This document shows, one piece after another, positions 8,059-36,400 of a DNA stretch of 47,166 nucleotides. The stretch's first letter is position 1. Every line of letters starts with the position of its first letter. A program made the translations under genes and the position numbers. Below the pieces are notes generated by a model. It made no database searches, was not told the DNA's origin, and saw only the letters and a list, made by a program, of their open reading frames with translations. Source of the stretch: Parafilimonas sp. (GTDB taxonomy: Bacteria; Bacteroidota; Bacteroidia; Chitinophagales; Chitinophagaceae); NCBI GenBank assembly GCA_019247895.1, contig JAFBAF010000253.1, forward strand, positions 1 to 47,166, read 5' to 3'.

Positions 8059-8087
8059 TCATATTTGTTGTAAAATAATCCTATATT

Positions 8088-13648: not shown

Positions 13649-13651
13649 ATA

Positions 13652-14992: not shown

Positions 14993-14993
14993 T

Positions 14994-15725: not shown

Positions 15726-16351
15726 TGATCGCTGATATAAAAATTGATAATACAGAAATAGCTTTTTTTGATTTTGACGGAACAATCACATCAAAAGATA
15801 CACTTGCTGAAGTGTTGAAGTTTATTAAAGGCAAAACCAATTACTATTTTGGCCTGCTTGTTCTTTCACCAATTATTGTTTCATATAAAATCGGTTTACT
15901 TTCCAATCATCGTGCTAAAGAAATTTTGCTTACTTATTTTTTAAAAGAAATGGACGCCAGTAAGTTCAATGCTTTATGCAGGGAGTTTACAGAAAAAAAA
16001 TTACCACATTTATTAAAGAAAAGTGCGCTGCATGAAATAAGAAAGCACTTGCAAAACAGAACGCCGGTAATCGTCATTTCTGCTTCACCTGAAAATTGGA
16101 TTTTTCCATGGTGTTCCAAATTCAATATTGAATGCATTGCCACAAAGCTTGAAGTGAAAGATGGAAAGCTTACAGGAAAAATAGAAGGACGAAATTGTTC
16201 AGGCCTTGAGAAAGTAAAACATATTCAAACAAGATATAAGCTTTCTGATTATAAAAAGATACATGCGTACGGCGATTCAAAAGATGATTTGCCAATGCTA
16301 AATTTAGCAACAGAAAAAAACTATAAACCTTTTAGGAAATATTCGTACTAA
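15725..16351 (+). CDS. HAD-IB phosphatase, candidate 5-phosphoribosyl-lipid phosphatase
   Basis: This 208-residue HAD superfamily hydrolase is SerB/CicA-like. Motif I is FFDFDGTITSKDT (D16, D18), motif II VIVISASPENW (S119-S121), and motif IV AYGDSKDDLPML (D184, D187, D188). The cap between motifs I and II is a small helical C1 cap. In mycobacteria a phosphatase must remove the 5-phosphate after the UbiA-type step, and this HAD enzyme, translationally coupled to the DprE2-like gene, is the natural candidate here. Mycobacteria are thought to use a PAP2-type enzyme (Rv3807c) instead, so this would be a substitution. Its stop is 5 bases from the stop of the convergent beta-helix gene. Confidence 0.85.
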   Translation: MIADIKIDNTEIAFFDFDGTITSKDTLAEVLKFIKGKTNYYFGLLVLSPIIVSYKIGLLSNHRAKEILLTYFLKEMDASKFNALCREFTEKKLPHLLKKSALHEIRKHLQNRTPVIVISASPENWIFPWCSKFNIECIATKLEVKDGKLTGKIEGRNCSGLEKVKHIQTRYKLSDYKKIHAYGDSKDDLPMLNLATEKNYKPFRKYSY

Positions 16352-18670: not shown

Positions 18671-20032
18671 TTGAAACTGCAATTTTCATCTTATTGGGTC
18701 CGTTCCGCTTTCTACACAATCCTGCAACGTTTTTCGTTAACCATTTTTGGTTTAATTAATTTTGTAATCCTGGTTCGTGTTTTAACCACACAGCAAGTAG
18801 GCACCTGGGCTTTGTTTTTGGCAGTTACTTCAGTTTTTGAAACCACTAAAAGCGGTCTTTTAAAAAATGCACATATACGATATGTAAGCAGTGAAAATAA
18901 CGTAGAAAATAAAATCTCCATTGCTTCATCTTCTTTATTAATAAATAGCTTGATAAGCATTGTATTTATCATTTTTCTTATCTTTTTTTCCGGTTGGATG
19001 AGTGTAAAATTGCATGCAGGCAACGATCTTTCCAACACGCTTTTATGGTTCATCCCGGGTTTGTTTTTCATGATATTCTTTTCTCATTTTGAAGCCATTC
19101 AACAATCGTTTCTTGATTTTAAAGGTGTGCTTGCAGGTTATTTAACAAGGCAATTATTTTTCTTCCTGTGCCTGGTAGCTCATTTTGTTTTAAAGAAGCC
19201 TTTTACGCTGCAGGAGCTTGCACTGTATTATTCAATCGCTGTTTTTCTGGGCACCATTTCATTATACATTTTCTGCAGAAAGTATATTCATCATAAATTC
19301 AATCCGGCAAAAAAATGGATCAGAAGTATTTTTGGTTATGGCGGGTATATTTTTGGATCAGGGGTAATGTCTAACATTTTTTCAAACTTAGACCAGGTGA
19401 TGACAGGTGCTTTTATTTCCAGCTCTGCTGTAGCTTTTTACAATGCAGCTTCGCGCATAAATGGTTTGGTTGATATTCCTTCTTATGCGGCAGCAGATAT
19501 TATATTCCCTAAGACCGCAAAAGCTGTTGTTGAAGATGGTAATGAAAAAGTGAAATATTTATATGAACGAATGGTTGGAATCTTGCTTTCATTTACTACG
19601 CCTGCAGCCATATTCATCATTATATTTCCCAATATTGTTATTACGATAATTGCCGGTTCAAAATATAGCTCAGCTGCGCCAATTTTACAGATGTACATGA
19701 TCACAGGGTTAATGCGCCCAATGCAAAACCAAGCCGCTAATTTGTTAAACTCGATTGGCAAACCATCCTTATGCTTTGTTATCAACACCGTTTCATTAGT
19801 CATAAATCTTATTGTTTCTTACTTCTGCATTAAATACATCCAGTTTTATGGAGCAGCGGTAGGAACTTTGATTGCAGGTGCAATTGGTTTTACCATTTGG
19901 TATTTTGTTATGAAAAAAGAGATTGGTCTGCACTTATCAAAAATCGGTGCTTATATTATTGAGGCGTATAAAGACATTTATACTTATGGATTAAGTTTTT
20001 ATAAGCGTATTAATTTGCGTTCACAGCAATAA
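18671..20032 (+). CDS. Wzx-like polysaccharide flippase (MOP superfamily)
   Basis: This 453-residue protein has 12 or more predicted transmembrane helices and the typical start of the oligosaccharide flippase family (SSYWVRSAFYTILQRFSLT, then ILVRVLTTQQVGTWALF). It would flip undecaprenyl-linked repeat units across the inner membrane. The start is a TTG at 18671: a TAA stop in the same frame lies directly upstream (18665-18667) and the next Met is far inside the conserved N-terminus, so TTG is the only reasonable choice. It is followed after one base by the GT14 gene and then by a GT-C gene, as one operon. Confidence 0.9.
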   Translation: MKLQFSSYWVRSAFYTILQRFSLTIFGLINFVILVRVLTTQQVGTWALFLAVTSVFETTKSGLLKNAHIRYVSSENNVENKISIASSSLLINSLISIVFIIFLIFFSGWMSVKLHAGNDLSNTLLWFIPGLFFMIFFSHFEAIQQSFLDFKGVLAGYLTRQLFFFLCLVAHFVLKKPFTLQELALYYSIAVFLGTISLYIFCRKYIHHKFNPAKKWIRSIFGYGGYIFGSGVMSNIFSNLDQVMTGAFISSSAVAFYNAASRINGLVDIPSYAAADIIFPKTAKAVVEDGNEKVKYLYERMVGILLSFTTPAAIFIIIFPNIVITIIAGSKYSSAAPILQMYMITGLMRPMQNQAANLLNSIGKPSLCFVINTVSLVINLIVSYFCIKYIQFYGAAVGTLIAGAIGFTIWYFVMKKEIGLHLSKIGAYIIEAYKDIYTYGLSFYKRINLRSQQ

Positions 20033-20888: not shown

Positions 20889-22589
20889 ATGTCGTTATTT
20901 CTAAAGCAATTTTCTTTTTTTTTATTTCTTGTTGCAGCAATTTGTTTCTGTGATTATATATATATCAACACAGGTGCAATTGGCATTGACGATGGTAATA
21001 TTTTTTTAAATTATGCACAACACATAGCGCAAGGACAGGGTTTTGTTTTTAATACTAATGGAGAAAGAGTTGAAGGCTTTACTTCTTTTTTATGGGTTTT
21101 AATTTGTGCACTTGGTTATTTAATTACATCAAATCCTGAGTTAATACTTATTTGTTTTTCAGCGCTGTTAACTACGTTTACTATCACGATTATTTACCAA
21201 ACTATAAAAAGGGATATTCAAATTCTGCAGCCACAATTTGAAAGGCATTTTTTTTGGATATATACAGCGTTTATAATTTGCATTGGACCGTCTTACATTG
21301 CATGGAGCGTTTTAAGCTTAATGGAAAATGCTTTATGGAATTTTGTGTTTACACTTCTTGTTGTATTAGTATCAAAAACAATTGAAAAGGAGAACGTTTC
21401 TCTTACAAGAAAAATTATCATTGTACTATCGGGTTGCGTTTTAACGCTGACAAGACCTGAAGCTTTAGCATGGAATTTTATATTCACATGTATTTTATTA
21501 TGGACATTCAGTCAACATAAGAGGAAAATATTTTTTCCATTAGTTTACTTTATTTGTTTTGCACTTGTAAGCGCGTGCCTAACTGCGTTTCGATTACATT
21601 ATTTTGGATTTCAATTCCCGAATACTTATTACGCAAAAATTTCTCCAGACAAAATTTATAATATTATTGAAGGCTCAAAATATGCTTTAAGTTTTCTTAC
21701 AGGTTATCAGCCAATAATTACTTTCTTGTTTGTGTTAATGACAGTTATGCTATTGTATAGCCTGTTTAATTTTAAATTACTAAAAAGTAACACCGATGAT
21801 TTTTTACCAAATGCATCTATCATAAAAAGATGTTGCATTGTAACTGTTATAATTTTAGTTGGATTTGCTTTGCCATTAACCACCGGCGGTGATCATTTTG
21901 GCGGCTTTAGATTTTATCAATCTTTATTATTGCTGTTTGCTTTTGGACTTTTAATGATTGTTTGGTTAATGAAAAATTATAAAGCTTATCGATCATCAAC
22001 CAATATTATTTTGCTTTCTGCTATTGTGTTATTTCTTTCAGTAATTGGGTTGAACGATTTGACAGATTTAAAAAATCCTGCAAAAACCCAATTGAATTTT
22101 GAGTTTTTATTGGCAAGGGAAGGAAGAGATATGGCGGAAAATTTAAACGCTTCCTTCAATGCAAATAAGCCTGCAGTTGGAATGATAGCAGTAGGTGGCT
22201 TTGGGTTGAAGTATAGAGGAATTACAATTGATTTGATGGGTTTGAATAATATTTTAATGGGTCATAGCCCTGGTGACAGAAAAGGAATAAAAAATCATGC
22301 AGCTTTTAATAAAAATGTTTTTTATAAATTAAACCCTGATTTGTTATTGCCGGCAAATGCAAGGGATTTTAAAGAAGCAACTATTGAATATTTTAACCTG
22401 CTTGACGTAAATAATTTTGATAACGAGGCGATGAAAAATATCTTTAATGATGATGCTTTTAAAAAAGTTTACACTCCTGTTTTCATTTCAAACAGAAAAA
22501 ATAACACAAGCTTATTTGCTTTTGTTAATGCAAACTTTATGCAGCTTGAAAAAAATAATCCAGATATTTCAGTTCAAAAAATACTTTAA
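20889..22589 (+). CDS. GT-C membrane glycosyltransferase resembling AftB-type arabinofuranosyltransferases
   Basis: This 566-residue protein has about ten hydrophobic helices to residue 390 and a C-terminal soluble domain of about 170 residues, probably periplasmic. Its first external loop reads DDGNIFLNYAQHIAQG then FNTNGERVEGFTSFLW; the Asp-Asp-Gly start, the Gly-x-Gly-x-Val-Phe-Asn spacing and the GERVE-xxT-x-LW ending resemble mycobacterial AftB (Rv3805c), which uses decaprenylphosphoryl-arabinose. The C-terminal ITIDLMGLNNILMGH and later HAAFNKN segments resemble the tail of the same group. D34 and D35 are candidate catalytic or metal residues. With the donor pathway encoded 5 kb away, pentose transfer at the periplasmic face is the best guess. 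Its stop codon shares bases with that of the convergent GT4 gene. Confidence 0.72.
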   Translation: MSLFLKQFSFFLFLVAAICFCDYIYINTGAIGIDDGNIFLNYAQHIAQGQGFVFNTNGERVEGFTSFLWVLICALGYLITSNPELILICFSALLTTFTITIIYQTIKRDIQILQPQFERHFFWIYTAFIICIGPSYIAWSVLSLMENALWNFVFTLLVVLVSKTIEKENVSLTRKIIIVLSGCVLTLTRPEALAWNFIFTCILLWTFSQHKRKIFFPLVYFICFALVSACLTAFRLHYFGFQFPNTYYAKISPDKIYNIIEGSKYALSFLTGYQPIITFLFVLMTVMLLYSLFNFKLLKSNTDDFLPNASIIKRCCIVTVIILVGFALPLTTGGDHFGGFRFYQSLLLLFAFGLLMIVWLMKNYKAYRSSTNIILLSAIVLFLSVIGLNDLTDLKNPAKTQLNFEFLLAREGRDMAENLNASFNANKPAVGMIAVGGFGLKYRGITIDLMGLNNILMGHSPGDRKGIKNHAAFNKNVFYKLNPDLLLPANARDFKEATIEYFNLLDVNNFDNEAMKNIFNDDAFKKVYTPVFISNRKNNTSLFAFVNANFMQLEKNNPDISVQKIL

Positions 22590-23779
22590 TTTAGGGAAGA
22601 CATTTCGAGTTCAGCAGTTTGCGGTTGTTGTTTAAGTACCGTCTTTTTATACACTTCACTAAAATTCTCAAACCATTTTTGCCAGGTCAAATATTCATCG
22701 AAACGCTGTCTGCTTGTGGTAATAAGTTCTTTAAATTTTCCCTGGTTCAAAAATAATTCGGCTATCAACGCAGCATAAATGTTTGCATCAGCAGTGTAAG
22801 GCAAACAATAACCGTTCACTCCATCCTTTATAATTTCAGGTACGCCACCTGTTTCAGTTGTAATTGCAGGCATGCCATAAGCATTCGCTTCGCTTCCAAC
22901 AAGCAAGGAGCAATCTGCTCTTGTAGGCACTAACAAAAAATGAGAAGTTGACATGATATTTACAAATCTTTCGTAATCTTCTTTTTTATTCTTGTCGAGA
23001 AATGGAATTACTTCCATGTTTGGATGAGAAATATGTGCCGGTGGAACACAACCGCAAACAATAAGCTTTGCCTGCATTCCGTGCGTGAAATGCAAGAACT
23101 TTAAAACGTCAAAAGCAATATTGCCCCCTTTTCTTTCCCAATCAACTGCTAAAAAAAGAACTGTAAGCTGGTGATTATTTAATTTATTAAAAATGATACT
23201 TTCGTCAGGAACCCTGTCAATATTAGCTCCAAACGGCGCAACAAAAATCTTTTCGTTCGATACATGATAATCATTTACCGCAGATTCTGCAGCCCACATT
23301 GAAGGATACATTACAGCAGCGCTTTTTCTTAATGCATGTTTCTCCAATAAATTCCCTTCAAATTTGGTAAGCCATGAAACTTTAATAAATTCATTGTAAG
23401 CATAATTGCGCATTAACTGGAAAGTTGCATCTGTAATATAAATAACAGGCAATTTTGTTTTTAAAAACCCAAGCTCGGGTGCGGCAGCCGGTGCACAAAT
23501 ACAATCGTATGATTTAGCTTTTAGTTTTTTGTTGAATTGCTTGGCAGAATACCAGCTTAAAAGTAAACTGTATTTTGTGATGTATTCTTTTCTGAAAAGT
23601 ATGCGGTTAAGCTTTGCAAGCGCACGCAATGTCTTATCTAACCATTTAGGCAACACCAAAGGGCCAAAAAAATCCACATCATTACCATTTCGTTGCAAGG
23701 TTTTTGCAATATAATATGTTGTTCCAGACCACGACCTTTTATCCAACGGATCGTTGATGGCCAAATATGCGATTCTCAT
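22586..23779 (-). CDS. GT4 family glycosyltransferase
   Basis: This 397-residue GT-B enzyme has an N-terminal acceptor domain starting MRIAYLAINDPLDKRSW with GTTYYIAKTLQRNG, and a C-terminal donor domain with VLFLAVDWERKGG, LIVCGCVPP and the motif VGSEANAYGMPAITTETGG, which carries the two acidic residues of the family's E-x7-E region. It is the last gene of the minus-strand polysaccharide operon. Donor and acceptor are unknown. It ends tail to tail with the GT-C gene: both stop codons share the tetranucleotide TTAA at 22586-22589, leaving no room for an intrinsic terminator between them. Confidence 0.88.
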   Translation of the reverse strand: MRIAYLAINDPLDKRSWSGTTYYIAKTLQRNGNDVDFFGPLVLPKWLDKTLRALAKLNRILFRKEYITKYSLLLSWYSAKQFNKKLKAKSYDCICAPAAAPELGFLKTKLPVIYITDATFQLMRNYAYNEFIKVSWLTKFEGNLLEKHALRKSAAVMYPSMWAAESAVNDYHVSNEKIFVAPFGANIDRVPDESIIFNKLNNHQLTVLFLAVDWERKGGNIAFDVLKFLHFTHGMQAKLIVCGCVPPAHISHPNMEVIPFLDKNKKEDYERFVNIMSTSHFLLVPTRADCSLLVGSEANAYGMPAITTETGGVPEIIKDGVNGYCLPYTADANIYAALIAELFLNQGKFKELITTSRQRFDEYLTWQKWFENFSEVYKKTVLKQQPQTAELEMSSLN

Positions 23780-23801: not shown

Positions 23802-24575
23802 TTAACTGTTGTTTTTTTCGCACACGAAAAAAAAGCCGCCTGTGAAATTATAAGGTAACCAATCTGCCAGCTTGCAATCTATTTTTTGCAAAAGTTTTAT
23901 ACGTTTTGAAAAAAAAGAAAACGGAAAAACATCTTCAACAAAATTGGCTTTGCCGAAACGCACAATTTTTAAATTATGCTTTTGAGAAAGCTGCTGAATA
24001 TCTTTCTTTGAAAAAAACTGAACATGATCCAAATTATCTGCTGCTGATTGTACTGTTGTGCCGCTGTAACCTAAGCTCTTCTTCACTCCTACAATTATTT
24101 TCCAAATCCAGTTATTTTTATTCCGGAGTTTTAAAACAGGTTTTGTAACAAGGCTTTCTCTTGGCCCTTTTCCGTTTGGAACAGTAATAATTAATTTTCC
24201 GTTTCCAACAAGACTTTTATTCAACACGTCAAGCAACGCATCAGGATCGTTTAAATGTTCCAACACTTCGCTGCAAATAATCGCATCATATTTTGCGCCT
24301 TCTGCAATTAATTCTTCAGCGCTCTTCTTCATAAACTGAACATTACGATATGTGTTCAACGCCTGTGCTTTTTCAATTGCTTTTTCACTCACATCAATGC
24401 CGGTTACATTAAAACCAAACTGGCCAAGATGACGGCTTATAACGCCGTTACCACAACCAACATCTAATATATTTGCATGAGATGGCAACGCATGCTGTAA
24501 AAAATCTGCAATAAAATCTACTCGCTTACGATCTGCGATTCTTTCAAATTCATAATTTCTTACCTGTACCTGCAT
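23802..24575 (-). CDS. Class I SAM-dependent methyltransferase
   Basis: This 257-residue protein has a Rossmann methyltransferase core. Motif I is NILDVGCGNGVISRHL (about 35-50), followed by VTGIDVSEKAIEKA with the acidic residue that binds the ribose of SAM, and ICSEVLEHLNDPDALL as the post-motif region of UbiG-like enzymes. The C-terminal part is longer than in small UbiG proteins and ends with hydrophobic FTGGFFFVCEKN. It sits between two GT4 genes in the operon, so O-methylation of a sugar in the polysaccharide or capping of the chain is likely, but this is inferred from position only. Confidence 0.88.
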   Translation of the reverse strand: MQVQVRNYEFERIADRKRVDFIADFLQHALPSHANILDVGCGNGVISRHLGQFGFNVTGIDVSEKAIEKAQALNTYRNVQFMKKSAEELIAEGAKYDAIICSEVLEHLNDPDALLDVLNKSLVGNGKLIITVPNGKGPRESLVTKPVLKLRNKNNWIWKIIVGVKKSLGYSGTTVQSAADNLDHVQFFSKKDIQQLSQKHNLKIVRFGKANFVEDVFPFSFFSKRIKLLQKIDCKLADWLPYNFTGGFFFVCEKNNS

Positions 24576-24580
24576 TGTTT

Positions 24581-25714
24581 TTAATTTTCAGATAAAACAT
24601 TTGTGTAAACAGCTTCAATTTTTTTAGTCATCTTACAAACATCAAAATCTTTTACAATTGTTTCTCTTGCTGTATTACCTAATTGTGTTCTTAAATTTTT
24701 ATTACTGATTAAATTATTCAGCGCATCAACCAGCATTTTTTTGTTTTGCGGGTTGATTAAAATTCCGTTTTTATTATTTTGAATGATCTCAACTGAACCA
24801 TCAACATTTGTTGCAATTACCGGTTTACACATTGCCATTGCTTCGAGCAAACCGATAGGAAATCCTTCCCACAAAGAAGGCAGGCAATAGATATCAGATG
24901 AAAACAAAATATCAGCAACATCTGTTCTGAAATTTTCAAAAATTATTTTGTCTTGAATGTTTAACTCTTTTGCAGATTGAATTGCTTCTGCTTTCATATC
25001 TCCATCTCCAATCATCAACAATACAGCATTTGCATTTCGTTCTGCAACTTCTTTAAATGCTTTTATTAAACTAAGCGGATCTTTTTGCAAAGTTATTCTT
25101 CCAATAAAACATATAACAATTGCATCGCCAGCAATATTTAATTGCCTGCGAAGATTTTTTCTTTCTCTACTTAAAGGATTAAACTTTTCAAGATCAATTC
25201 CATTATAAATAACTTCTGATTGAAAACCGTCAATATTATCTTTTCCTGTTTTTTGATTAGATGATGAAACAGAAATATTACGATTAGTTTTTTTAGTGAT
25301 CCAATTCTCAAAATATATGCGTGCCTTTTTCACCAACGTTGATTGATCATCGTGAAAAGACCAGCCATGAATTGAATAAATAACAGGCAGTTTCAAATTT
25401 TTTGCAGCCCAATAAATATTAGATGTTGCCCTTGTGCCATGAATATGCACAAGATCAATTTTTTCTTTTTGCATAAGGGCTTTCACTTGCTTCCATTTAG
25501 TAAGGTCAAACGCTTTGTTTGAAGGAATTACAAAATTGTCAACACCAATATTTTTTAATTCAGTAATCATTTGTCCATCTGTAAACGATAATACGACCGG
25601 TTCAAAACGGTTTTTATCAATATGTTTTACCAGGCTTAGTATATGCGACTCACCACCGCCAACCATACCCTGCCGTATAGCTTGTAAAACTTTTATTTTT
25701 TTATTTTCATCCAT
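24581..25714 (-). CDS. GT4 family glycosyltransferase
   Basis: This 377-residue GT-B enzyme starts at the ATG at 25714 (MDENKKIKVLQAIRQGMVGG). An upstream in-frame ATG at 25753 would add 13 residues but overlaps the asnB coding region by 29 bases and gives an untypical start, so I prefer the shorter form. Family motifs are GGGESHILSLVKHI, VHIHGTRATSNIYWA, ISIHGWSFHD-like strand, FIGRITLQKDPLSLIKAF, and the E-x7-E donor region SLWEGFPIGLLEAMAMCKP. It lies 10 bases after asnB and 5 bases before the methyltransferase gene, in one operon. The sugar is unknown. Confidence 0.88.
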   Translation of the reverse strand: MDENKKIKVLQAIRQGMVGGGESHILSLVKHIDKNRFEPVVLSFTDGQMITELKNIGVDNFVIPSNKAFDLTKWKQVKALMQKEKIDLVHIHGTRATSNIYWAAKNLKLPVIYSIHGWSFHDDQSTLVKKARIYFENWITKKTNRNISVSSSNQKTGKDNIDGFQSEVIYNGIDLEKFNPLSRERKNLRRQLNIAGDAIVICFIGRITLQKDPLSLIKAFKEVAERNANAVLLMIGDGDMKAEAIQSAKELNIQDKIIFENFRTDVADILFSSDIYCLPSLWEGFPIGLLEAMAMCKPVIATNVDGSVEIIQNNKNGILINPQNKKMLVDALNNLISNKNLRTQLGNTARETIVKDFDVCKMTKKIEAVYTNVLSEN

Positions 25715-25724
25715 TATAATGGTG

Positions 25725-27629
25725 TTAAGCCGCACCGTTAAACCACTTTTCATACCATAACTGAAACACCAGTATGTTCCAAACTTTTTGATATGTTACG
25801 CGCTTTCCATCCAAATAATCTTTGCTTAGTTTTATAACAGGAGCGTTATTAAATAAGCCAGATTCATTTAATTTTTTCTCGCTTAAATAATACTGGATCT
25901 TTTCTTTCAGTTCATCCTTAAACCAAACAGTTAATGGTGCAATAAAAGGCATCTTCGGCCTGTCCATTAAATGCTGCGGTACATACTTATGAACGATTTG
26001 TTTAAGAATATATTTGTTAGTTTGGTTTCTTATTTTAAGATGCGCCGGTAATTGCGCTACAAATTCTATAATGCGGTGATCGAGCATAGGCTCACGGCCT
26101 TCGAGACCAACAGACATTGTTGCCCTGTCAACCTTCACCAAATTGTTATCAACTAAAAAAGTTTGATAATCTATTGCCAGTAATTTGTTTAATGTATTTA
26201 CATCAGGAAACAAGTTTTTCTCGCTTTCAAAGTTTGTTTTGTAGCCGGCATATTTATGTTTTAAAAAAACGTTGGCCTCATCTTCGGTAATATACTGGCT
26301 GATATATTTCATTGCAGCAGCAGGAGATTTTTCCTGCCATATCTTCTGCATTTTTTTATAACGCGTTGCGAAATTGTATTGCTTATTAAAATAAGGAATG
26401 CTTTCAGGATTGATATAACTCATCATGTTTCCAAAAAGCGACTGAATAAAAGTTGGAACTGCTTCAGTATACTTTATTGACTGGTTGAATTTATTATAAC
26501 CCGCAAACACTTCATCGCCTCCATCTGCGGAGAGAGAAACTTTTACATACCGGCTTGCAAGTTTGCTTACCAAAGCAGTTGGAACAACAGAATTATCAGC
26601 AAAAGGTTCATCGTAAATTTCCGGAAGTTTATGAAAAATGTCTGCAGCGTCGAATGCTGTTACATACCATTCATGATGATCTGTTCCCAAATATTCAGCT
26701 ATTTTTTTTGCCTCAGGTGCTTCATTAAAGGATGCTTCTTTATAGCCGATTGTAAAAGTCTTTAATTTTTCAGTTCTGTTCTTTTGTAAGATAGCTGCAA
26801 CACTCGTGCTATCATAACCGCCACTCAAAAACAAGCCAACAGGTACATCTGCAACCATGCGGTATTCATAAGCTGATATCAATAATCTTTCTACTTCAGC
26901 AATTGCATCATTTTCTGAAATAGATAATGTTGGTTTATTATAGTAATCACAAACATCCCAATATTTAGTTTCTGTAATTCTTTTATCCCCGAGTGATAAT
27001 TTAAGATAATGCGCCGGTTTTAATTTGAAAGTGTTTTTAAAAATTGTATGGGGTGCGGGTATGTAACTATATTGTAAAAAAAGTGAAAGACTATTTACAT
27101 CTATTTCTTTATGAAAATCTGAATGCTTATGCAGGCTTTTTAATTCGGATGCAAATAAGAATGAAGAACCGTTCCAATAATAATATAAAGGCTTTACTCC
27201 TGCCCGGTCTCTGCAAATAGTTATCTCCTGTTTTTCATTATCATACATAACAAAAACAAACATGCCAATGAATTTTTCTACCACTTCAATTCCCCAGCGA
27301 TGAAAGCCTTTCAAAATAACTTCCGAATCTGAAGTTGAATTAAAGCAATAACCTTCCATTATTAATTCATTGCGTATCTCGTTATAATTATATATTTCTC
27401 CGTTAAAGATCATTGAAAGATTTTCAAATTCCATTGGCTGCCTTCCGTTCGCAGAAAGATCAATGATGGATAATCTTCTTTGACCTAAACCAATCAACGC
27501 ATTTTTTGCATCATATACCTCATAGCCGGAATCATTAGGACCTCGATGTGTTAGTGCATCAGTCATTTCATGCAACACTTGTGCAGATGAATTTTTATTG
27601 AAATCGCAAAAGCCTGCTATTCCGCACAT
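25725..27629 (-). CDS. asnB: Asparagine synthase-type glutamine amidotransferase
   Basis: This 634-residue protein has both AsnB domains. The N-terminal glutaminase has the nucleophile C2 (MCGIAGFCDF) plus RRLSIIDLSANGRQP and FNGEIYNYNEIR. The C-terminal ATP-pyrophosphatase domain has the PP-loop FLSGGYDSTSVAAIL and later LSADGGDEVFAGYNKF and GREPMLDHRIIEF. It could make asparagine. However, AsnB homologues embedded in polysaccharide loci often amidate a sugar carboxyl group such as a uronic acid, and the tight packing here (13-base overlap with the upstream GT2 gene, 10 bases before the next GT4) favours that role. The choice between the two is inference. Confidence 0.9.
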   Translation of the reverse strand: MCGIAGFCDFNKNSSAQVLHEMTDALTHRGPNDSGYEVYDAKNALIGLGQRRLSIIDLSANGRQPMEFENLSMIFNGEIYNYNEIRNELIMEGYCFNSTSDSEVILKGFHRWGIEVVEKFIGMFVFVMYDNEKQEITICRDRAGVKPLYYYWNGSSFLFASELKSLHKHSDFHKEIDVNSLSLFLQYSYIPAPHTIFKNTFKLKPAHYLKLSLGDKRITETKYWDVCDYYNKPTLSISENDAIAEVERLLISAYEYRMVADVPVGLFLSGGYDSTSVAAILQKNRTEKLKTFTIGYKEASFNEAPEAKKIAEYLGTDHHEWYVTAFDAADIFHKLPEIYDEPFADNSVVPTALVSKLASRYVKVSLSADGGDEVFAGYNKFNQSIKYTEAVPTFIQSLFGNMMSYINPESIPYFNKQYNFATRYKKMQKIWQEKSPAAAMKYISQYITEDEANVFLKHKYAGYKTNFESEKNLFPDVNTLNKLLAIDYQTFLVDNNLVKVDRATMSVGLEGREPMLDHRIIEFVAQLPAHLKIRNQTNKYILKQIVHKYVPQHLMDRPKMPFIAPLTVWFKDELKEKIQYYLSEKKLNESGLFNNAPVIKLSKDYLDGKRVTYQKVWNILVFQLWYEKWFNGAA

Positions 27630-28531
27630 ACATCAACTTTTTTTAAATTATAATTTGAAAGATTCCAAAACAAACCTTTCCAGAATGCTTTCAAATGGTC
27701 AAGCTCTTTTTTGAATAGAAATTCCAATGTGTTTTTTGGAAGCGTAAAAAAAGAATAATAAAAAGCAAACCCGAGAAACGAAATTCCTTTTACATTTCTG
27801 CGCATGAACAGAATTCTGTTCCTGTTTAAATAGAATGTTTTTAAAACGCTTTTTTTACCAACCGACATTGACTCTTTATGATATATCAGAGATTTATATT
27901 GATAATAAATTCCGTAACCTTTTTTCTTTATTTGTTCGCACCAGTCAAACTCTTCATAATATAAAAAGTATATTTCCGGCATCGGGCCAACATCTTCAAT
28001 CACTTTACGTGAGATCATCATGCCGCCGCCGTGTGCATAATTTGTTCTGGCAATTGCATCATACTGGCCTTCATCTTTTGTTCTGCAGCCGATCATGCTG
28101 TTGCGGCCTGTAAACACATTTACTTCTCTGTATCCTGCAAACTCAATCGTACCGGGCGCATAGTAATAATGAAATTTGGGACTTACCACGCCGGCATCAG
28201 GATAATCTTCAAACACCTCTAATAAACCTTCAATTATTTGCGGTGAAAGCTCAGTATCATTATTTACAAAAAATAAATAATCTCCTTTTGCTGCTTTTAT
28301 TCCAAGATTATTGCCGCCGGCAAAACCAAGGTTTTTTTCTGCCAAAATAATATTGGCCGAAGGAAGTATTTTTTTTAATCTTTCAGTGGGATTTTCGGAC
28401 GAACCATTATCCACAACAATCACTTCTACGTTTGGATAGTCAAGCCAAACTATTGATTTCAGCAAATCTGCCGTAACATTTGTGTTGTTATAATTAACTG
28501 TAATGATTGATATGAGTGGCTTAATTATCAT
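27617..28531 (-). CDS. GT2 family glycosyltransferase (WbbL/rhamnosyltransferase-like)
   Basis: This 304-residue GT-A enzyme has SIITVNYNNTNVTADLL, VEVIVVDNGSSENP, NLGFAGGNNLGIKAA, YLFFVNNDTELSP (the NND corresponds to the DxD metal site) and GGGMMISRKVIEDVG, followed by YEEFDWCEQIKKKGY as the base region. This motif order is that of the WbbL-like rhamnosyltransferase branch, though the sugar is not certain. The C-terminus carries a hydrophobic stretch (FLGFAFYYSFFTLP) that may sit on the membrane. The gene overlaps its neighbours on both sides (11 bases upstream, 13 downstream), indicating translational coupling. Confidence 0.9.
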   Translation of the reverse strand: MIIKPLISIITVNYNNTNVTADLLKSIVWLDYPNVEVIVVDNGSSENPTERLKKILPSANIILAEKNLGFAGGNNLGIKAAKGDYLFFVNNDTELSPQIIEGLLEVFEDYPDAGVVSPKFHYYYAPGTIEFAGYREVNVFTGRNSMIGCRTKDEGQYDAIARTNYAHGGGMMISRKVIEDVGPMPEIYFLYYEEFDWCEQIKKKGYGIYYQYKSLIYHKESMSVGKKSVLKTFYLNRNRILFMRRNVKGISFLGFAFYYSFFTLPKNTLEFLFKKELDHLKAFWKGLFWNLSNYNLKKVDVCAE

Positions 28532-29738
28532 TTGTTGTTTGATAAAGCGGATTGCTTATTTCTGTTTTTGTATGAATGGTATGAATAAAAATATTTTTTG
28601 CTTTTTTAATGCTGAATAAAGATGCCGTCATTAGCAGCATAGCTTTCGGCAATTGTAATACAGCATTAAATGTTTTCTTGTTGATAAAATGCGCAGGCAA
28701 AGCCATTGCAAGTGTTATAAAATATAATATTGTTAAACCTGTAAATGATAAGTAAATGAAAGCATTATTGAAAGCATAACTAATGAGAGTAAATAAAAAT
28801 AATGCGGCGATTAAAAGCACTCTTGGAGGAACAAGATTGTTTAAAACAGCAAGATTAAAATAACTGAAATTACCTTTTACAAGCTGCTTAAAACCTGGAA
28901 TAAAAAATTCTTTCAAATAGGTAAACTGGCTAAGCAACCATCTTTTTCTTTGTTGTTTGAAAGCATTCGGGTTATCAATTTTTTCGTCAAACACCAATGC
29001 CTCGTCCAAAAATTTTATTTTGTGTCCTGCTTCAACAATTTTTAATTGTAAAGGTTTATCGAATCCGCTTACCACAGAAATTTTAGCTAAAACGTTTTTT
29101 ACCATATTGAATTCGAACGCCATTCCTGAACCAATTACAGCAGATGATAAACCAAGCGCATTAGCACCTTTACGAAAAATATGATTATTGATTGCTTCGC
29201 TGCAGCCATCAAGCACAGCAAAATCTGTATTAATATTTTTGGCTACACGCCTGCCTTGTATTGCTTTAGCACCGTTTACGAATTCGTAATTCACTTGGCG
29301 CAAAAAATCTTCTGATAAAATATTATCTGCATCACAAATCAATGCAATATCATAAGGCTTATTAATTTGTTTAAAAGCCTCGTTTAATGATTTTGATTTT
29401 GTGCTGTTTTGAAACGCCACTTCGATAACCTTTACACGCAGCTGTTGCAATTGCTGAATAGTTGAAGGTTGAAATGAATCGGCTATAATATATATATCAT
29501 ACCAAAACTTGGGATAATCTAACTTTAAAAGGTTTTGCGCAGTCGACAAAATAATATTGTCTTCTTTATAAGCAGGAACTAATACAGCTATGCGTTTTAC
29601 GGGTTGTGAGTAATTTAAATTCTTATCGCCTTTCTTTTGCAAAGCGCCGGCAACAGAAAAGATAAAAAAGTACAACACTGAAAGACTGCAGTAAGCTAAT
29701 AATACAAGCAGTATTGTTTTCAAAATAAGATCAAACAT
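28521..29738 (-). CDS. Membrane-bound GT2 glycosyltransferase
   Basis: This 405-residue protein has an N-terminal transmembrane helix (about 5-30), a GT-A domain with IAVLVPAYKEDNIIL, DIALICDADNILSEDFL (DAD metal site), GSGMAFEFNMVKN, and the processive-type motif QQRKRWLLSQF (Q-x-x-RW), then three C-terminal hydrophobic segments (about 285-385). The layout resembles cellulose or hyaluronan synthase-like GT2 enzymes and suggests coupling of synthesis to the membrane. It overlaps the sugar transferase gene upstream by 8 bases and the next GT2 gene by 11 bases. Confidence 0.88.
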   Translation of the reverse strand: MFDLILKTILLVLLAYCSLSVLYFFIFSVAGALQKKGDKNLNYSQPVKRIAVLVPAYKEDNIILSTAQNLLKLDYPKFWYDIYIIADSFQPSTIQQLQQLRVKVIEVAFQNSTKSKSLNEAFKQINKPYDIALICDADNILSEDFLRQVNYEFVNGAKAIQGRRVAKNINTDFAVLDGCSEAINNHIFRKGANALGLSSAVIGSGMAFEFNMVKNVLAKISVVSGFDKPLQLKIVEAGHKIKFLDEALVFDEKIDNPNAFKQQRKRWLLSQFTYLKEFFIPGFKQLVKGNFSYFNLAVLNNLVPPRVLLIAALFLFTLISYAFNNAFIYLSFTGLTILYFITLAMALPAHFINKKTFNAVLQLPKAMLLMTASLFSIKKAKNIFIHTIHTKTEISNPLYQTTNDN

Positions 29739-30846
29739 TATGTTTCTGTATTAATTCTTTTGGAGTTTTAAGCAAAATCTTCAGGTCAAAAAGAAAAGAA
29801 TGTTTATCGGCATAATCAATATCCATATTAATTCTTTCCTGCACAGTAAGATCGTAATTTGATCTTCCTTTCACCTGCCAAAGACCTGTAATACCTGCAG
29901 GCGCAAAAAATCTTTTTGCGGATTTATCAACAGTTATTGTTTTTGCTTCATATAAAGGCAAAGGCCTGTTGCCAACCAAGCTCATATCACCTTTTAAAAC
30001 ATTAAAGAGTTGCGGTAATTCATCCAAACTGGTTTTACGCAAAACTTTTCCTACACGGGTTACTCTTGGGTCATCTTTTAGTTTAAAAAAGAATGACTGT
30101 TGAAAATCCTTGTATTCATTCATATATTGCAGGTCAGCGATCATGCTGTCTGCATTTACAACCATTGTTCTGAATTTGAAGAACGTAAATACTTTGTACC
30201 ATTCTCCGGCGCGCTTTGATCTGTAAAAAACCGGTCCCTTGCTTTCCAACTTTATTGCTATTGAAATCAGAACAATCAATGGAGTTAATACGAGCAAACA
30301 GGTTGCCGAAAGAAGAATATCCAAACTGCGCTTTAAAATGTATTGATGATCTAAAAATCTCTTTTTAGGCACTTCAACATGGTAAGGCATTTTGCCCTGG
30401 TAAAACTTAAACTTCTTTAATATTTTTACTTTTTCCGCCAGATCTGTAACGGAAGTATTGCACGAGATAACATCATCAACACCTTCAACCCGCAGTAAAT
30501 GCAAAGGCTGCGCCTGTTCCTTTAATTGAAGTAAAAGAAAAGGTGTAATTGCCGCTAATTTCTTAGAAGTCAAAAAAGAGCTTATTTCTATAATGCTTTT
30601 CTTGCCAATTTCATAATCGCAAACAACAGCATCAAAGAAATGCTTGGTTGATACATTCAAAATTTGCTTTGCTTCACCAATATTTTGAGCAACTATTACA
30701 TCAACCCCGGTAAAACATATTTCGCCTTTTTCTAAAGCAGTGGATGAAAGGATTAAGAGCAGCCTTAATCTTTGCTTTTGCGGAAAATTTCCACCATGCG
30801 GGGCCTGCGGATTGCTTTTGGTTAGTAAGTTCGGTCGTCTTGTCAT
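29731..30846 (-). CDS. Initiating sugar-phosphate transferase with N-terminal receiver-like domain
   Basis: Residues 165-371 of this 371-residue protein form a bacterial sugar transferase (polyprenyl glycosylphosphotransferase): [17 protein letters not shown] (reentrant membrane helix), [54 protein letters not shown] and [14 protein letters not shown]. It would load the first sugar on undecaprenyl phosphate. Residues 27-148 look like a two-component receiver fold: LRLLLILSS, phosphoacceptor-like D77 in AVVCDYEIG, then TPFLLLQL and GVDDVIS. The usual Lys before Pro is absent (ISCN), and the acidic pair after strand 1 is missing, so it is a degenerate receiver. The gene follows a stand-alone receiver by 5 bases. 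Confidence 0.9.
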
Positions 30847-30851
30847 AACGG

Positions 30852-31238
30852 TTAATTGTTACAAGTTAGTTGTGTAGCCATGTGTTTTATGGTTGCATCT
30901 ACAAGGCTTTTAAGTTCTAACGGGTCGAAAGGTTTGTTTATAATATCAACAGCTGGAAATTCTTTGGAAAATTCATTTGCCGGGGAGCTAGAAACTACAA
31001 TTACAGGAATTCTTTTATATACAGCGCTGGTTAACAAATGTTTAATAAATTCATAACCTGTAATATTTTCCATTAAAAGATCGCTGATTATTAAATCTGG
31101 TGTTATACCACGGTTAAGATAACACATCGCTTCTACGCCGTCGCTCGCTGTAAAAACAATATATTTTTTTTCAAACAGTTTTTTTAACAACAAAACCATT
31201 ACTTCGTCATCATCAACAATAAGTAGCGTATTTTTCAT
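30852..31238 (-). CDS. Stand-alone response-regulator receiver domain
   Basis: This 128-residue protein is a single receiver domain with all key residues: D9-D11 after strand 1 (LLIVDDDEV), phosphoacceptor D53 (LIISDLLMEN), S83 or S84 (VIVVSSSP) and K102 (IINKPFDP). There is no output domain. It is the first gene of the minus-strand polysaccharide operon and lies 5 bases before the sugar transferase that itself carries a degenerate receiver-like domain. It may therefore act by protein contact on that enzyme or as a phosphorelay element, rather than on DNA. No kinase gene is adjacent; the LytS-type kinase lies 23 kb away and has its own partner. Confidence 0.92.
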   Translation of the reverse strand: MKNTLLIVDDDEVMVLLLKKLFEKKYIVFTASDGVEAMCYLNRGITPDLIISDLLMENITGYEFIKHLLTSAVYKRIPVIVVSSSPANEFSKEFPAVDIINKPFDPLELKSLVDATIKHMATQLTCNN

Positions 31239-31413
31239 CGTTATATTTGAGTTTGCTGTTTTTGATTGGTTTATGAGATAAAATTAGTTGTAGTAAATGG
31301 CCTTTATCCTGAAAATTGGTAAACGTTAAAAAAATGCTCGGGAACGCGAAGAAACCATTGGGGTAAATCTATAATAAAATAGGTGAATGAACGATTAAAC
31401 TTAATTTGCGTTT

Positions 31414-32601
31414 ATGTCCGTCTGGAAATGTATCTTTTTTTCATGCATTTTTATTTTTTTATACAACTACTTTGGTTACGCAATTTTAGCTTATTTTATT
31501 AACCTGGTATATCCTAAATTCAAAAAACGAGCCACTACAGATTATTATCCTACAATCTCATTTATTGTAGCGGCTTTTAATGAAGCAGCCATCATTGAAA
31601 AGAAAATTGAAAACTCATTAAAGCTGCATTATCCGCAAGAGAAAGTTGAATTTATTTTTATTACAGACGGCTCAACCGATAATACTCCTGGAATAGTCAG
31701 TCAGTATCCGCAAATTAAGTTACTGCATTCCCCGGAACGAAAGGGGAAATCATCGGCTTTAAACCGGGCAGTAAAATCGGCCGTAAATGATATACTAATA
31801 ATAAACGACGCCAATACTTTTCTAAATACTGATTCATTAAAAAACATAACAAGACATTATAGTGATAATATGACCGGCGGTGTGGCAGGCGAAAAAAGAG
31901 TGGTTGAATCCCCTGATGATAGTGACAATGTAGGTGGTCAGGAAGGTTTATATTGGAAATATGAAGCAGCATTAAAAAAAATTGATTCAGATTTTTATTC
32001 TGTGGTAGGAGCTGCGGGAGAATTATTTTCTGTTCGCAGAGAATTATATGAAGACATACCTGAAGCAACTATTCTTGATGACTTTGTGATATCGCTTAAA
32101 ATAGCAGAGAAAGGTTACAGGATAATTTACGAACCCAAGGCTTATGCAATGGAGTTTGCCTCTGCGTCCCTCGGAGATGAGAAGAAACGGAAAGTTCGGA
32201 TTGCGGCTGGTGGCTTTCAGTCAATATTAATGCTTACCTCGTTGTTTAAATTTTGGAAACATCCAAGACTAACATTTTTGTATATATCCCATCGCGTTTT
32301 GCGCTGGGCCTTAAGTCCGTTTTGTTTAATTTTAATATTTATTTCAAACCTTTTTCTTGCCTTTATAACAAACAATTTCTATTATAATATTTGTTTACTT
32401 TTTCAAATAATTTTTTATTCAATATCTTTTATATCAAATTATATTTCAGTTAATTCTAAATTTAAATTTCTCAAATTTTCCGGATATTTCGTGTTTATGA
32501 ACCTTTCTGTTATTCAGGGTTTTTTCCGATTTATATTTAAACGACAAACAACGAACTGGGAAAAGGCTACGCGCTCCTCCGCTGTAATTAATGTTGAATA
32601 A
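31414..32601 (+). CDS. Membrane-bound GT2 glycosyltransferase (processive-like)
   Basis: This 395-residue protein has an N-terminal membrane helix (about 5-33), then a GT-A domain with SFIVAAFNEAAIIEKKI, FIFITDGSTDNTP, ILIINDANTFL (DAN metal site), VVGAAGELFSVRREL, ILDDFVISLKIAEKGY (base residues) and KRKVRIAAGGFQS at the place of the Q-x-x-RW motif. Three or four hydrophobic segments follow (about 290-370). The shape resembles poly-N-acetylglucosamine or hyaluronan synthase-like GT2 enzymes. It is transcribed away from the operon headed by the stand-alone receiver, from a shared 175-base intergenic region. Confidence 0.88.
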   Translation: MSVWKCIFFSCIFIFLYNYFGYAILAYFINLVYPKFKKRATTDYYPTISFIVAAFNEAAIIEKKIENSLKLHYPQEKVEFIFITDGSTDNTPGIVSQYPQIKLLHSPERKGKSSALNRAVKSAVNDILIINDANTFLNTDSLKNITRHYSDNMTGGVAGEKRVVESPDDSDNVGGQEGLYWKYEAALKKIDSDFYSVVGAAGELFSVRRELYEDIPEATILDDFVISLKIAEKGYRIIYEPKAYAMEFASASLGDEKKRKVRIAAGGFQSILMLTSLFKFWKHPRLTFLYISHRVLRWALSPFCLILIFISNLFLAFITNNFYYNICLLFQIIFYSISFISNYISVNSKFKFLKFSGYFVFMNLSVIQGFFRFIFKRQTTNWEKATRSSAVINVE

Positions 32602-33356: not shown

Positions 33357-33496
33357 TGGCAGCATAAACGAAACGGATTGCGTAAAACAGGATTAATTAC
33401 ATTATTTTGCTTAAAGTTTAACCCACTGTTTTGAAAACTAAATTTATTTGACCACCAAATCCCAGATGATTATCTGTGGATTATATCCCATCTGAA

Positions 33497-36400
33497 ATGA
33501 CAAAATGTTACATTTTCTTGCTATTGGGTTGTATATATGCTAACTTTCAAAACACTTTGTTTGCACAGTCAGTATTAGACCCTAATGATCCTATTGTTGA
33601 ATATGATGCAACAAACCCACCGGTACAACCACCCTACGGACAAATAGGTAAATGGGTAAGAACAAAAAGCTTGTCATGGAATTCTGATTCTTATAAGTGT
33701 TACATATATGAAGGTTCATGCTTTCGTCTGAAATTTCCAAAAACATATAATCCAACCGCAAACGATGGTAAAAAATATCCTTTAGCGATACTATTTCATG
33801 GCGCCGGCGAAGCAGGCCCCATCACTGATAACGAATCACAATTATATCATGGTGGGCCCGAGTATAAGAACGCTGTTGACAACGGCAGTTTTGATGGTTA
33901 TGTACTGTTTATGCAAAGCCAGGGCCTTTGGGGCATTACGTCTTATGCAAGAATAATTGATGTTATTAATTACATGATAACTAATAATAAACTTGACCCG
34001 TTCAGAATAAGCGTTAATGGGCTATCTTCAGGAGGGCAGGCAGCGTGGGATATGATTATCAACTATCCTAATTATGTTACTGCATCGTTACCAATGTCAA
34101 GTGTTTCTATTGGTTACAAAGACCCTTCTGTGGTAAATAAGGTTAAGTTTACACCAATGTGGGATTTCCAGGGAGAATTGGATGGATCTCCTGATGTTTC
34201 TACTGCGCAACAGGTAAGAGATGCGATGATAAACGCTGGAGGGAATTATCGTTACACAGAATATCAGAATACGGGTCACAACACATGGGACAGTGCTTTT
34301 ATAGAGCCTGATTTTTTTCCTTTTATGAGCAGAGGATACGCATCTAATCCCTGGCCACTATTCGGCAGAACAGGTTTTTGTCCGGGCAACACAATTAATG
34401 TAACACTTGGCGTTGCACCCGGGTATAACAGTTATCAGTGGAGAAAAGACAGTACGGTAATTCAAGGCGCTACATCAAACACTATTATTGCTACTTCTTT
34501 AGGCACTTACGATGCAAGAGTTTTAAGAGGCTCCATATGGTCTGATTGGTCGCATATTCCTGTTGTATTGCAAATAACACCACCAACGGTAACGCCGCCA
34601 ATACGTGTTTCAGGTTTAATGAGTAATGTACTTATTTCAGGAGACGGCAAAAATTATGTAAATCTGGAAGTGCCTGATAGCGGGTACACAAGTTATACAT
34701 GGAAAAAAGTTGGTAGTGACAGCGTTATTGGTACTCAAAGAATTTATACCGCAACTCAAACTGGTCAGTATATTGTAGCCGTTACTCAGCAATATGGTTG
34801 TTCGAGTATCTATTCACCACCGTTCGCTGTAGTTAATGCTAATGGTTTAAATGCGCCTGATGCTGCTTCAAAACTTACCGCAACAACTTTGTCAAGCACA
34901 GAAATAGTGCTTAACTGGGAAAACAATCCTCATCCATTAAACAATGAAACCTTTTTTGAAATTTACAGAAGCACATCACAAAGCGGAGCTTATAGTTTTA
35001 TTGGTAAAGCACCTGCAGATGTTTTGAAATATGAAGATTCCAAATTATCGCCAGGGCTTAATTATTATTATAAGATAAGAGCAATCAACAATAATGGAGC
35101 CGCTGCAATGTCGAATATTGCAAACGCATCTACACAAGCTGACCAGACTCCTCCATCAGCCCCAGGTAATTTGCGTATAAAATATGCTACTAATTCGTCT
35201 ATAAGTATTATATGGAATCCCTCTACAGATAATGTTGGTGTTGCAAACTATGATATCTATATTAATAATGTAAAAAGTTATACAACATCAGCCGATAGCT
35301 TTATTGTAAATGCATTACAACAGGGCAAACAATATACATTTTATGTAAAAGCAAAAGATTCAAGCAATAATTATTCTGTTCAAAGTAATCTTGCCAGTTC
35401 GCCTGCTGTTTTAAACGGCCTTATGTGGAAATATTATGAGGGTTATTGGGAAGCATTACCAGATTTTAATACATTAAACGCATTAGATGCCGGTGTAACT
35501 CCAAATATTGATCTTAGTGTAAAAAAACGGCTAACCTTGTTTGGCATTTTATGGCAGGGATTTTTAAATGTTCCGGTTACAGGCACATATCGCTTCAGCA
35601 CTACTTCTGACGATGGAAGCCGTGTGTGGCTGAATGCTTATGATCCGTCTATAAAACCGCTTGTTGATAACGATCATGTAAATGCGAAAAAAACTAAGCC
35701 CAGCACAAATATTACCCTGCAAAAAGGATTATATCCAATTTCAATTGCATATTATCAAAACAAGAATGGCAGGGTAATGGAATTAAACTGGACATGCCCT
35801 GCATTATTCGGCGACTCAGCTTCTCACCCAATTGAAGATAAATATTTTGTTAGCAATTATGTTGCGCCCGATTCTGCACCGAAAACACCAACTAATTTAA
35901 CGGCAACTGCGCTTTCATCCAGTGCAGTAAAACTTTCATGGAGTGATAAGAGCAATAATGAAACAGGTTTTCAAATTTACAGGTCTGCAAAAACTGCAAA
36001 CAATTATACAGTAGTTTTCACCACTCAATCAAATATCACTTCTTTTACAGATTCAAATCTTGTTGATGGCGTTAAGTATTATTACTTTATAAATGCCGTG
36101 AATAATTATGGCGCTTCCACATTTACAAGCTCAGTAACGGCAACTACATTAAAATTGCCTTTACCAAAAGCACCAACACTTGTAAAAGCCAAAACGGTAT
36201 CATCTTCTTCTATTCAAATTACATGGAACGATATAGACACAACAGAAACAAATTACCAGGTTTTAAGATCTGTAGTGGATACATTCAATTTTAAGCCTGC
36301 GGCTTTATTACCTGCAAACAGCACTTCATTTACCGATTCTGCTTTATATGGCAACACGAATTATTATTATAAAGTGAATGCGATTCGCGGAACAGCTTCT

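Follow-up and report, generated by a model that had tools for sequence, protein, structure and literature searches.

A response regulator gene paired with pseudo-receiver-fused phosphoglycosyl transferases across Bacteroidota: a candidate switch at the first step of glycan synthesis

The still open question of how bacteria hold back the first step of polysaccharide synthesis, which consumes carrier, received a direct answer in late 2025 from the EpsW/EpsZ system of Myxococcus xanthus. The same question is raised by a gene pair on the minus strand, at positions 29731–31238 of a 47,166-nt stretch of DNA from Parafilimonas sp. (GenBank assembly GCA_019247895.1, contig JAFBAF010000253.1; hereafter the window). 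The pair encodes a stand-alone receiver, or single-domain response regulator (RR), of 128 aa and a phosphoglycosyl transferase (PGT) of 371 aa. A sequence-only reading of the window had placed the two open reading frames (ORFs) at these positions, where we also found them, and had suggested that phospho-signalling acts on the first membrane step of glycan synthesis by protein contact. Here, we report that the RR gene pairing is specific to one PGT subfamily and is spread across the phylum Bacteroidota. By analogy with EpsW/EpsZ, it appears likely that a phosphorelay controls the first committed glycan step by direct contact between the RR and the PGT.

The 371-aa protein (29731..30846, minus strand) is, on the basis of its sequence, a small-type monotopic phosphoglycosyl transferase (monoPGT; PF02397). 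Its Bac_transf match covers residues 172–366 (Pfam E 6.2e-62; 208.7 bits against a cut-off of 27). The catalytic domain (residues 166–371; 29734..30351, minus strand) carries the re-entrant helix motif DX12P (D176/P189) and the dyad DE (D275/E276), both invariant in 80/80 aligned homologues; these are monoPGT motifs as named in the text of PMC12802240. The fold of this domain is like that of C. concisus PglC (8e37; Foldseek E 2.8e-14; Z 19.6, 37% identity over 179 residues), but PglC, as described in PMC12802240, consists of the catalytic domain only, whereas the window PGT has an added pseudo-receiver. A large monoPGT has a four-helix membrane bundle and a domain of unknown function (DUF), PF13727; residues 1–165 of the window PGT gave no Pfam match, and its model shows no helix bundle. 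The protein scored below the cut-off of all 10 NCBIfam models listed for it, and the EpsZ model NF041877 yielded 181.3 bits, over residues 164–362 only, against a curated cut-off of 800.

The sequence-only reading had described about 120 N-terminal residues of this enzyme as receiver-like, with a retained Asp (D77), no Lys and no acidic pair. Structure prediction bore out the receiver fold: the AlphaFold2 (AF2) model, built from an 80-row alignment, had a mean pLDDT of 86.9, with ten-residue blocks from 21 to 150 at 81–96, except for residues 111–120 (69). The predicted secondary structure consists of b1 (28–32), a1 (35–40), b2 (49–53), a2 (56–65), b3 (73–77), a3 (82–94), b4 (103–107), b5 (125–128) and a5 (133–152), helix a4 being missing. 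VIA-align superimposed the model on the PhoB receiver 2jb9 over 115 residues (Z 12.7, residues 26–147, 3.0 A); PDB receivers aligned at Z about 12, and the Foldseek matches listed were, from rank 5 onward and with few exceptions, receivers or receiver-bearing chains. In hhalign, the N-terminal profile matched the RR profile with a probability of 99.1% (E 7.5e-19). Direct matches were also obtained in the fused domain of relatives, with Pfam Response_reg in 9/80 homologues (E up to 1; best 2.4e-10) and with an RR hidden Markov model (HMM) in 115 of the 224 domain-bearing PGTs described below (E up to 0.01; best 3e-22).

Taken by sequence and model, the fused domain (residues 25–155; 30382..30774, minus strand) is a receiver with its active site lost. 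D77 is the final residue of b3 and aligns with the phospho-site D53 of the RR, and to this extent the description of a retained Asp was correct, but the position is not conserved (D in 24, E in 25 and other residues in 31 of the 80 aligned sequences), and D77 was accordingly rejected as a working phospho-site. The profile alignment places C129 at the Lys position and L33/S34 at those of the acidic pair, in agreement with the earlier description; position 33, the expected start of the pair, is Gly in 71/80 sequences, and position 129 is without Lys dominance. A D-D motif preceding b5 is kept (D124 in 73/80, D125 in 60/80). This motif is common in many intact receivers, and it is also present in the RRs of loci L013–L015. 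We considered a recent duplication of the PGT's own RR as the source of the pseudo-receiver. This origin was unsupported, because local alignment scores with the own RR (47.2) only slightly exceeded those with other RRs (44.2; shuffled 29.2), the own-RR score being the higher one in 116/211 pairs (Wilcoxon p 0.004).

The gene preceding the PGT (30852..31238, minus strand) had been read as encoding a complete receiver without output, and we reached the same description. Response_reg matches residues 6–113 of the 128-aa product (6.8e-18), which has no output domain and contains the D9/D10 acidic pair, the phospho-acceptor D53, S83 and K102. All five phosphorylation residues are complete in 179 of the 218 RRs encoded directly upstream of subfamily PGTs, with D53 kept in 208 and Lys102 in 214; in a 78-row RR alignment, the corresponding counts were 59 for complete sites, 74 for D53 and 76 for K102. 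The window RR scored 41.5 bits with the EpsW model NF041866 (curated cut-off 200).

The co-occurrence of the two genes, a survey of which the sequence-only reading had proposed, was determined in three sets, pooled with the loci of a first set of genomes that included the window's own. A search of genome contigs yielded 569 confirmed relatives, the best 80 of which were examined. Evenly drawn samples were added: of 392 genomes across the phylum, 102 had a match at E 1e-60 or lower, and of 393 across the order, 122 had one at E 1e-90 or lower. Collapsing identical proteins reduced 269 PGTs to 240 distinct ones, in which genus-level redundancy remains. PGTs of at least 340 aa were counted as domain-bearing; this length criterion was adopted over the domain start because an insertion splits the catalytic match in some PGTs. 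Locus L086 was left out of the 80-row PGT and 78-row RR alignments, and L009, which has no RR, is absent from a further alignment.

The subfamily stands apart in the phylum sample, with scores of at least 323 bits against at most 230 for the remaining matches. The extra domain is present in 224 of the 240 distinct subfamily PGTs, the other 16 being short. Of the 224 domain-bearing PGTs, 211 are immediately preceded by an RR gene, and one further case each has it at 486 nt or is at a contig edge. The two genes are on the same strand, separated by a median of 31 nt, and abut or overlap in 34 pairs. By contrast, none of 53 other monoPGTs has an RR upstream; these controls came from 55 such enzymes in the first set of genomes, of which two at contig edges had less than the 450 nt of upstream sequence needed to be counted. 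Among the best 80 of the 569 relatives, L086 was set apart and the RR was directly upstream in 77 of the 79 analysed, the exceptions being L038, in which the RR ends 204 nt upstream, and L103, with none. The records of these 80 are titled Chitinophaga, Parafilimonas, Flavihumibacter, Fulvivirga, Chryseolinea, Marivirga, Pedobacter, Parapedobacter, Saprospiraceae, Phaeocystidibacter and others. In the collapsed phylum sample (47 proteins), the RR was directly upstream of 34/35 domain-bearing PGTs and of 4/12 short ones, with a displaced RR in four of the latter and none in four.

A FastTree phylogeny built on 213 columns of the catalytic domain shows six changes in domain presence and 15 in RR adjacency, with short forms scattered among domain-bearing ones. 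We read the scattered short PGTs as repeated losses of the domain, in a tree that itself carries no gain or loss direction and has several weak deep branches. Whether domain and RR were lost together was also examined in sister pairs, of which there were too few to decide (4 with supported branches only, 6 with all branches; median p 0.5).

Several loci depart from the usual arrangement. In L031, L032, L045 and L052, the RR stop and the PGT start are in frame, two codons apart, so that a single stop codon divides the two products. A 958-aa ORF in a draft record of Flexithrix dorotheae (L086:3877-6753) has about 600 residues without a Pfam match preceding the pseudo-receiver and PGT; it could represent a genuine fusion or result from faulty assembly (3 N occur in the fetched stretch), and the two ORFs before it seem by eye to encode a TIR-type protein and a MoxR-type ATPase. 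In L144, L149, L152, L155 and L159, a DUF4842/DUF4114 (LruC-type) gene, assigned with Pfam in L144 and L155 and by eye in the other three, lies between an RR gene and a short PGT of this subfamily, and the RRs of L144 and L159 look partly degenerate by eye. A record titled Beijerinckiaceae (Alphaproteobacteria; L033) contains a similar cluster of RR, PGT and glycosyltransferase genes and is probably a mis-binned metagenome assembly.

A candidate source of phosphate is found beside the pair in some genomes. The next same-strand ORF (at least 100 aa) upstream of the RR encodes a hybrid kinase (HATPase, REC, Hpt) in six loci from three lineages. In L143, L147 and L153, which belong to one genus and have a short PGT, the kinase-REC-Hpt gene lies 17–33 nt from the RR gene (domains from Pfam for L143 and L153, and from its close match for L147). 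In L220, from the family of the window and with a PGT bearing the pseudo-receiver, a kinase is encoded upstream, with an Hpt match of 22.8 bits, below the cut-off of 24.6. In L265 and L267, which share a genus, the kinase ORF upstream of the RR is cut by the fetched stretch. Further kinase genes lie nearby in L142 (REC-HisKA-HATPase), L136 (HisKA-HATPase, no RR found) and L146 (HMM match only). The scan reached about 1.5–6 kb upstream, depending on the locus, and the six kinase loci are therefore a lower bound. Most RR/PGT pairs look orphan, including that of the window; when the window's genome was searched with the hybrid kinase encoded beside other pairs, the only matches were to its kinase and receiver core (best 36% over residues 187–560), and no orthologue was recognized.

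The closest precedent is that of M. xanthus, in which EpsW~P contacts EpsZ and stimulates it post-translationally (Schwabe et al. 2025, PMC12802240). According to the text of that study, EpsZ was enriched by proximity labelling in strains able to phosphorylate EpsW and not in those without the DifE kinase, and EpsW raised EpsZ activity in Salmonella. The likeness consists in a single-domain response regulator serving an exopolysaccharide-initiating monoPGT, a regulatory effect being assigned to the Bacteroidota pair by analogy. EpsZ differs in being, as described there, a large monoPGT with the four-helix membrane bundle and DUF, whereas the window PGT is of the small type with a pseudo-receiver; EpsW was modelled against the DUF and the catalytic domain, and here the DUF is replaced by the pseudo-receiver, a natural partner for a receiver dimer. 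The constancy of the association is also similar, in that the RR accompanies one initiating PGT (211/224 against 0/53).

Receivers without an output domain work by contact, and the PGT is the constant neighbour of this output-less RR. In the mechanism that we propose, the pair is the control head of a surface-polysaccharide operon, and the PGT starts the glycan on its lipid carrier, on the cytoplasmic side of the inner membrane. The RR would be phosphorylated by a hybrid kinase containing receiver and Hpt domains, which is encoded beside the pair in some relatives and presumably elsewhere in other genomes, the window's included. Receivers commonly pair with receivers, and the phosphorylated RR would bind the PGT most likely by pairing with the pseudo-receiver, as in a two-receiver dimer. 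Binding would alter the activity of the catalytic domain, with activation as the effect suggested by EpsW/EpsZ, and glycan synthesis would thereby be switched at its first step without transcription. The sign of this effect, binding through the pseudo-receiver and the kinase that would act in the window's genome are inferred. Glycan synthesis is probably turned on and off in this way by phosphate signalling through protein contact, and not by gene expression; docking of the RR on the pseudo-receiver specifically is a somewhat less secure part of the scheme than contact with the PGT as such. The suggestion of phospho-signalling by contact stands in part, favoured by the conserved pair, the complete residues of 179/218 RRs, the degenerate receiver in the PGT, the six kinase loci and the EpsW/EpsZ precedent; neither of the outcomes that the sequence-only reading named as refuting it, a confident model without a receiver fold or an unconserved gene pair, came about. 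A wider view, which we hold tentatively, is that of a phylum-wide split switch, in which a whole PGT subfamily of Bacteroidota is governed by a kinase-Hpt phosphorelay and the final receiver of the relay is a separate protein docking on a pseudo-receiver that evolved solely as a landing site; some lineages would then be drifting towards two pseudo-receivers, and others would have dropped the landing domain again.

Several observations weigh against this mechanism. No kinase gene adjoins the pair in the window, where the sole kinase among the 28 ORFs scanned is of the LytS type and more than 22 kb away, and for 11 of the 224 domain-bearing PGTs the retrieved sequence contains no RR. Evidence of contact from covariation is also equivocal. 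In mean-field direct coupling analysis of 211 pairs (Meff 181), the z-scores of the top inter-protein couplings were no better than those of three shuffled pairings; several top intra-domain couplings matched receiver strand contacts. The raw top inter-protein values were higher for the true pairs (1.08 against 0.66–1.01), in a comparison in which shuffling also removes shared ancestry. RR distances correlated with those of the N-terminal domain beyond the catalytic domain (partial r 0.25, reached by 0/500 permutations), which speaks for the mechanism, but the partial correlation between RR and catalytic domain was larger (0.36), pseudo-receiver distances being saturated. An AF2 model of a read-through RR+PGT protein (19-row alignment) was of low confidence (pLDDT 67, pTM 0.52); the PleD chain 2v0n_A aligned with its residues 7–280 non-rigidly (rmsd 13.3).

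The short PGTs, which lack the pseudo-receiver, bear most directly on the site of contact. Seven of the 16 keep the RR directly upstream, and at least four more have it beyond an inserted gene (the remaining nine comprise four with a displaced RR and five with none, or five and four if the longer copy of L137, L159, with its RR 2.3 kb upstream, is used). The pseudo-receiver is therefore not the sole possible contact, and the RR may touch the catalytic domain as well. In an alternative reading, the RR controls the PGT directly but touches its catalytic domain or membrane-proximal helix, while the pseudo-receiver serves for homodimerisation or as a spacer and leaves the RR unbound. The complete row of kinase, RR and short PGT genes in L143, L147 and L153 and the stronger RR-catalytic correlation agree with this alternative, as does the modelled contact of EpsW with both the DUF and the catalytic domain of EpsZ, as presented in PMC12802240. 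We nevertheless regard it as unlikely, although it is the most serious of the alternatives, given that in the phylum sample the RR adjoins domain-bearing PGTs far more regularly than short ones (RR directly upstream in 34/35 against 4/12), a difference for which the phylogenetically controlled test had too few pairs. The common pairing of receivers with one another is a further general argument for docking on the pseudo-receiver.

The proposed control by phosphorylation is also challenged by the RRs themselves, 39 of 218 (18%) of which are missing active-site residues, in most cases from the acidic pair, one of them (L049) being a fragment at a contig edge. Phosphorylation therefore cannot drive every pair. 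In Flavihumibacter- and Flavipsychrobacter-type RRs (L075, L080, L087, L092 and L095), T-A or T-E replaces the acidic pair; Asp, Ser and Lys are kept, and the pairing with the PGT is retained. Such pairs, still together despite incomplete sites, would fit a constitutive structural complex in which the two receivers serve, or are coming to serve, as scaffolds, independently of phosphorylation. This seems improbable for the family as a whole, with 179/218 sites complete, D53 kept in 208 RRs and kinase genes adjoining the RR in three lineages. Slightly less probable still is an RR that serves as a phosphate sink, or as an intermediate of a relay ending elsewhere, linked to the PGT only for co-expression: the kinases adjoining the pair carry Hpt domains, as relays do, and Black et al. 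2015 (PMC4671073), in their treatment of EpsW, proposed an intermediary role for it before the 2025 work, but a pairing of 211/224 against 0/53 for other PGTs requires more than co-expression, and later work with proximity labelling and an activity assay in a heterologous host located EpsW at EpsZ, as reported in PMC12802240. The notion that the N-terminal part is a cut-down PF13727 domain of a large PGT can be dismissed as extremely improbable, for although it occupies the chain position of the DUF of WbaP/EpsZ and WbaP 8t53 aligns over model residues 26–367 (rmsd 17), its profile matched the N-terminal parts of large PGTs (11 sequences) in hhalign at 4.1%, against 99.1% for receivers, on which ground a relic of that DUF was rejected, and Response_reg matched 9/80 homologues while PF13727 was not among the matches listed (25 of 39 families).

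Contact between the RR and the PGT as part of a phosphorelay thus remains our preferred interpretation, and parts of it have precedents. The principle of a response regulator acting on a PGT has been known since 2025, and receiver-type domains fused to small monoPGTs, which resemble the window PGT in combining the two in one chain, since 2021 (O'Toole et al. 2021, as cited in PMC12802240). The main text of PMC12802240 on EpsW/EpsZ contains no word beginning with "bacteroid", and our search of the open-access literature, which did not extend to O'Toole et al. 2021, found no title or abstract describing the RR/PGT pair in Bacteroidota. Within that literature, the degenerate fused domain, the near-constant and mostly intact RR partner, the spread across Bacteroidota and the kinase-RR-PGT gene rows are new. 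In PMC12802240, control of the EpsW/EpsZ kind was proposed to extend beyond myxobacteria. More than 200 distinct pairs are now available from another phylum, with PGTs of the small type and, in some genomes, attached kinases, so that this proposal can be tested on soluble receivers and a membrane enzyme of small size. A natural series for locating the signal is also available, comprising a complete RR with a pseudo-receiver, a decayed RR with a pseudo-receiver, and an RR without one.

A comparable order of domains exists in PleD, the architecture of which is REC, degenerate REC and GGDEF: a phospho-receiver comes first, then a degenerate one and then the enzyme domain. PleD is a one-chain diguanylate cyclase, whereas the window system has two genes and a separate phospho-receiver. 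We found no PleD-like form in one polypeptide: the subfamily open frames listed did not exceed 458 aa, or 400 aa among the best 80 of the 569 relatives, except for L086, in the 958-aa ORF of which Pfam Response_reg had no match at E up to 0.1.

The RR gene is the first of eight minus-strand genes of a polysaccharide operon extending from 31238 to 22586. As the sequence-only reading had it, the pair leads this operon: the eight genes are tightly spaced (+5, -8, -11, -13, -29, +5 and +22 nt), and the next gene upstream, a GT2 glycosyltransferase gene (31414..32601, plus strand; PgaC-like, below the NCBIfam cut-off), is divergent and has a 175-bp intergenic region in common with the RR gene. The Bacteroidota -7 box is TAnnTTTG; this region contains none on the strand of the RR gene and one on the plus strand, at 31242. 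Family searches assigned the six genes following the PGT, all on the minus strand, to a GT2 glycosyltransferase with an 8-nt overlap with the PGT (28521..29738), a second GT2 glycosyltransferase (27617..28531), an asparagine-synthase-type amidotransferase (25725..27629), a GT4 glycosyltransferase (24581..25753), an S-adenosylmethionine (SAM) methyltransferase (23802..24575) and, as the final gene, a GT4-type glycosyltransferase (22586..23779). A Wzx-type flippase (18671..20032, plus strand; Pfam Polysacc_synt 5.3e-22) and a branching enzyme are encoded past the operon end on the opposite strand, and the flippase suggests a Wzx/Wzy-type pathway.

Other regions of the window also contain recognizable gene groups. 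At 7309-8843 (plus strand), the LytS-type kinase (PF06580) is accompanied by a LytTR response regulator and resembles an ordinary two-component system. Consecutive UbiA prenyltransferase, FAD-binding, short-chain dehydrogenase and HAD genes occupy 12725-16351 (plus strand), adjoined by a glycosyltransferase gene at 11475-12722; we take this row to resemble a donor pathway of the decaprenylphosphoryl-arabinose type. Finally, an ORF of 2107 aa with a GTG start (33476-39799, plus strand) has, by eye, a hydrolase-like N-terminal part and fibronectin type III-like repeats, and its C-terminal tail resembles a type IX secretion signal.

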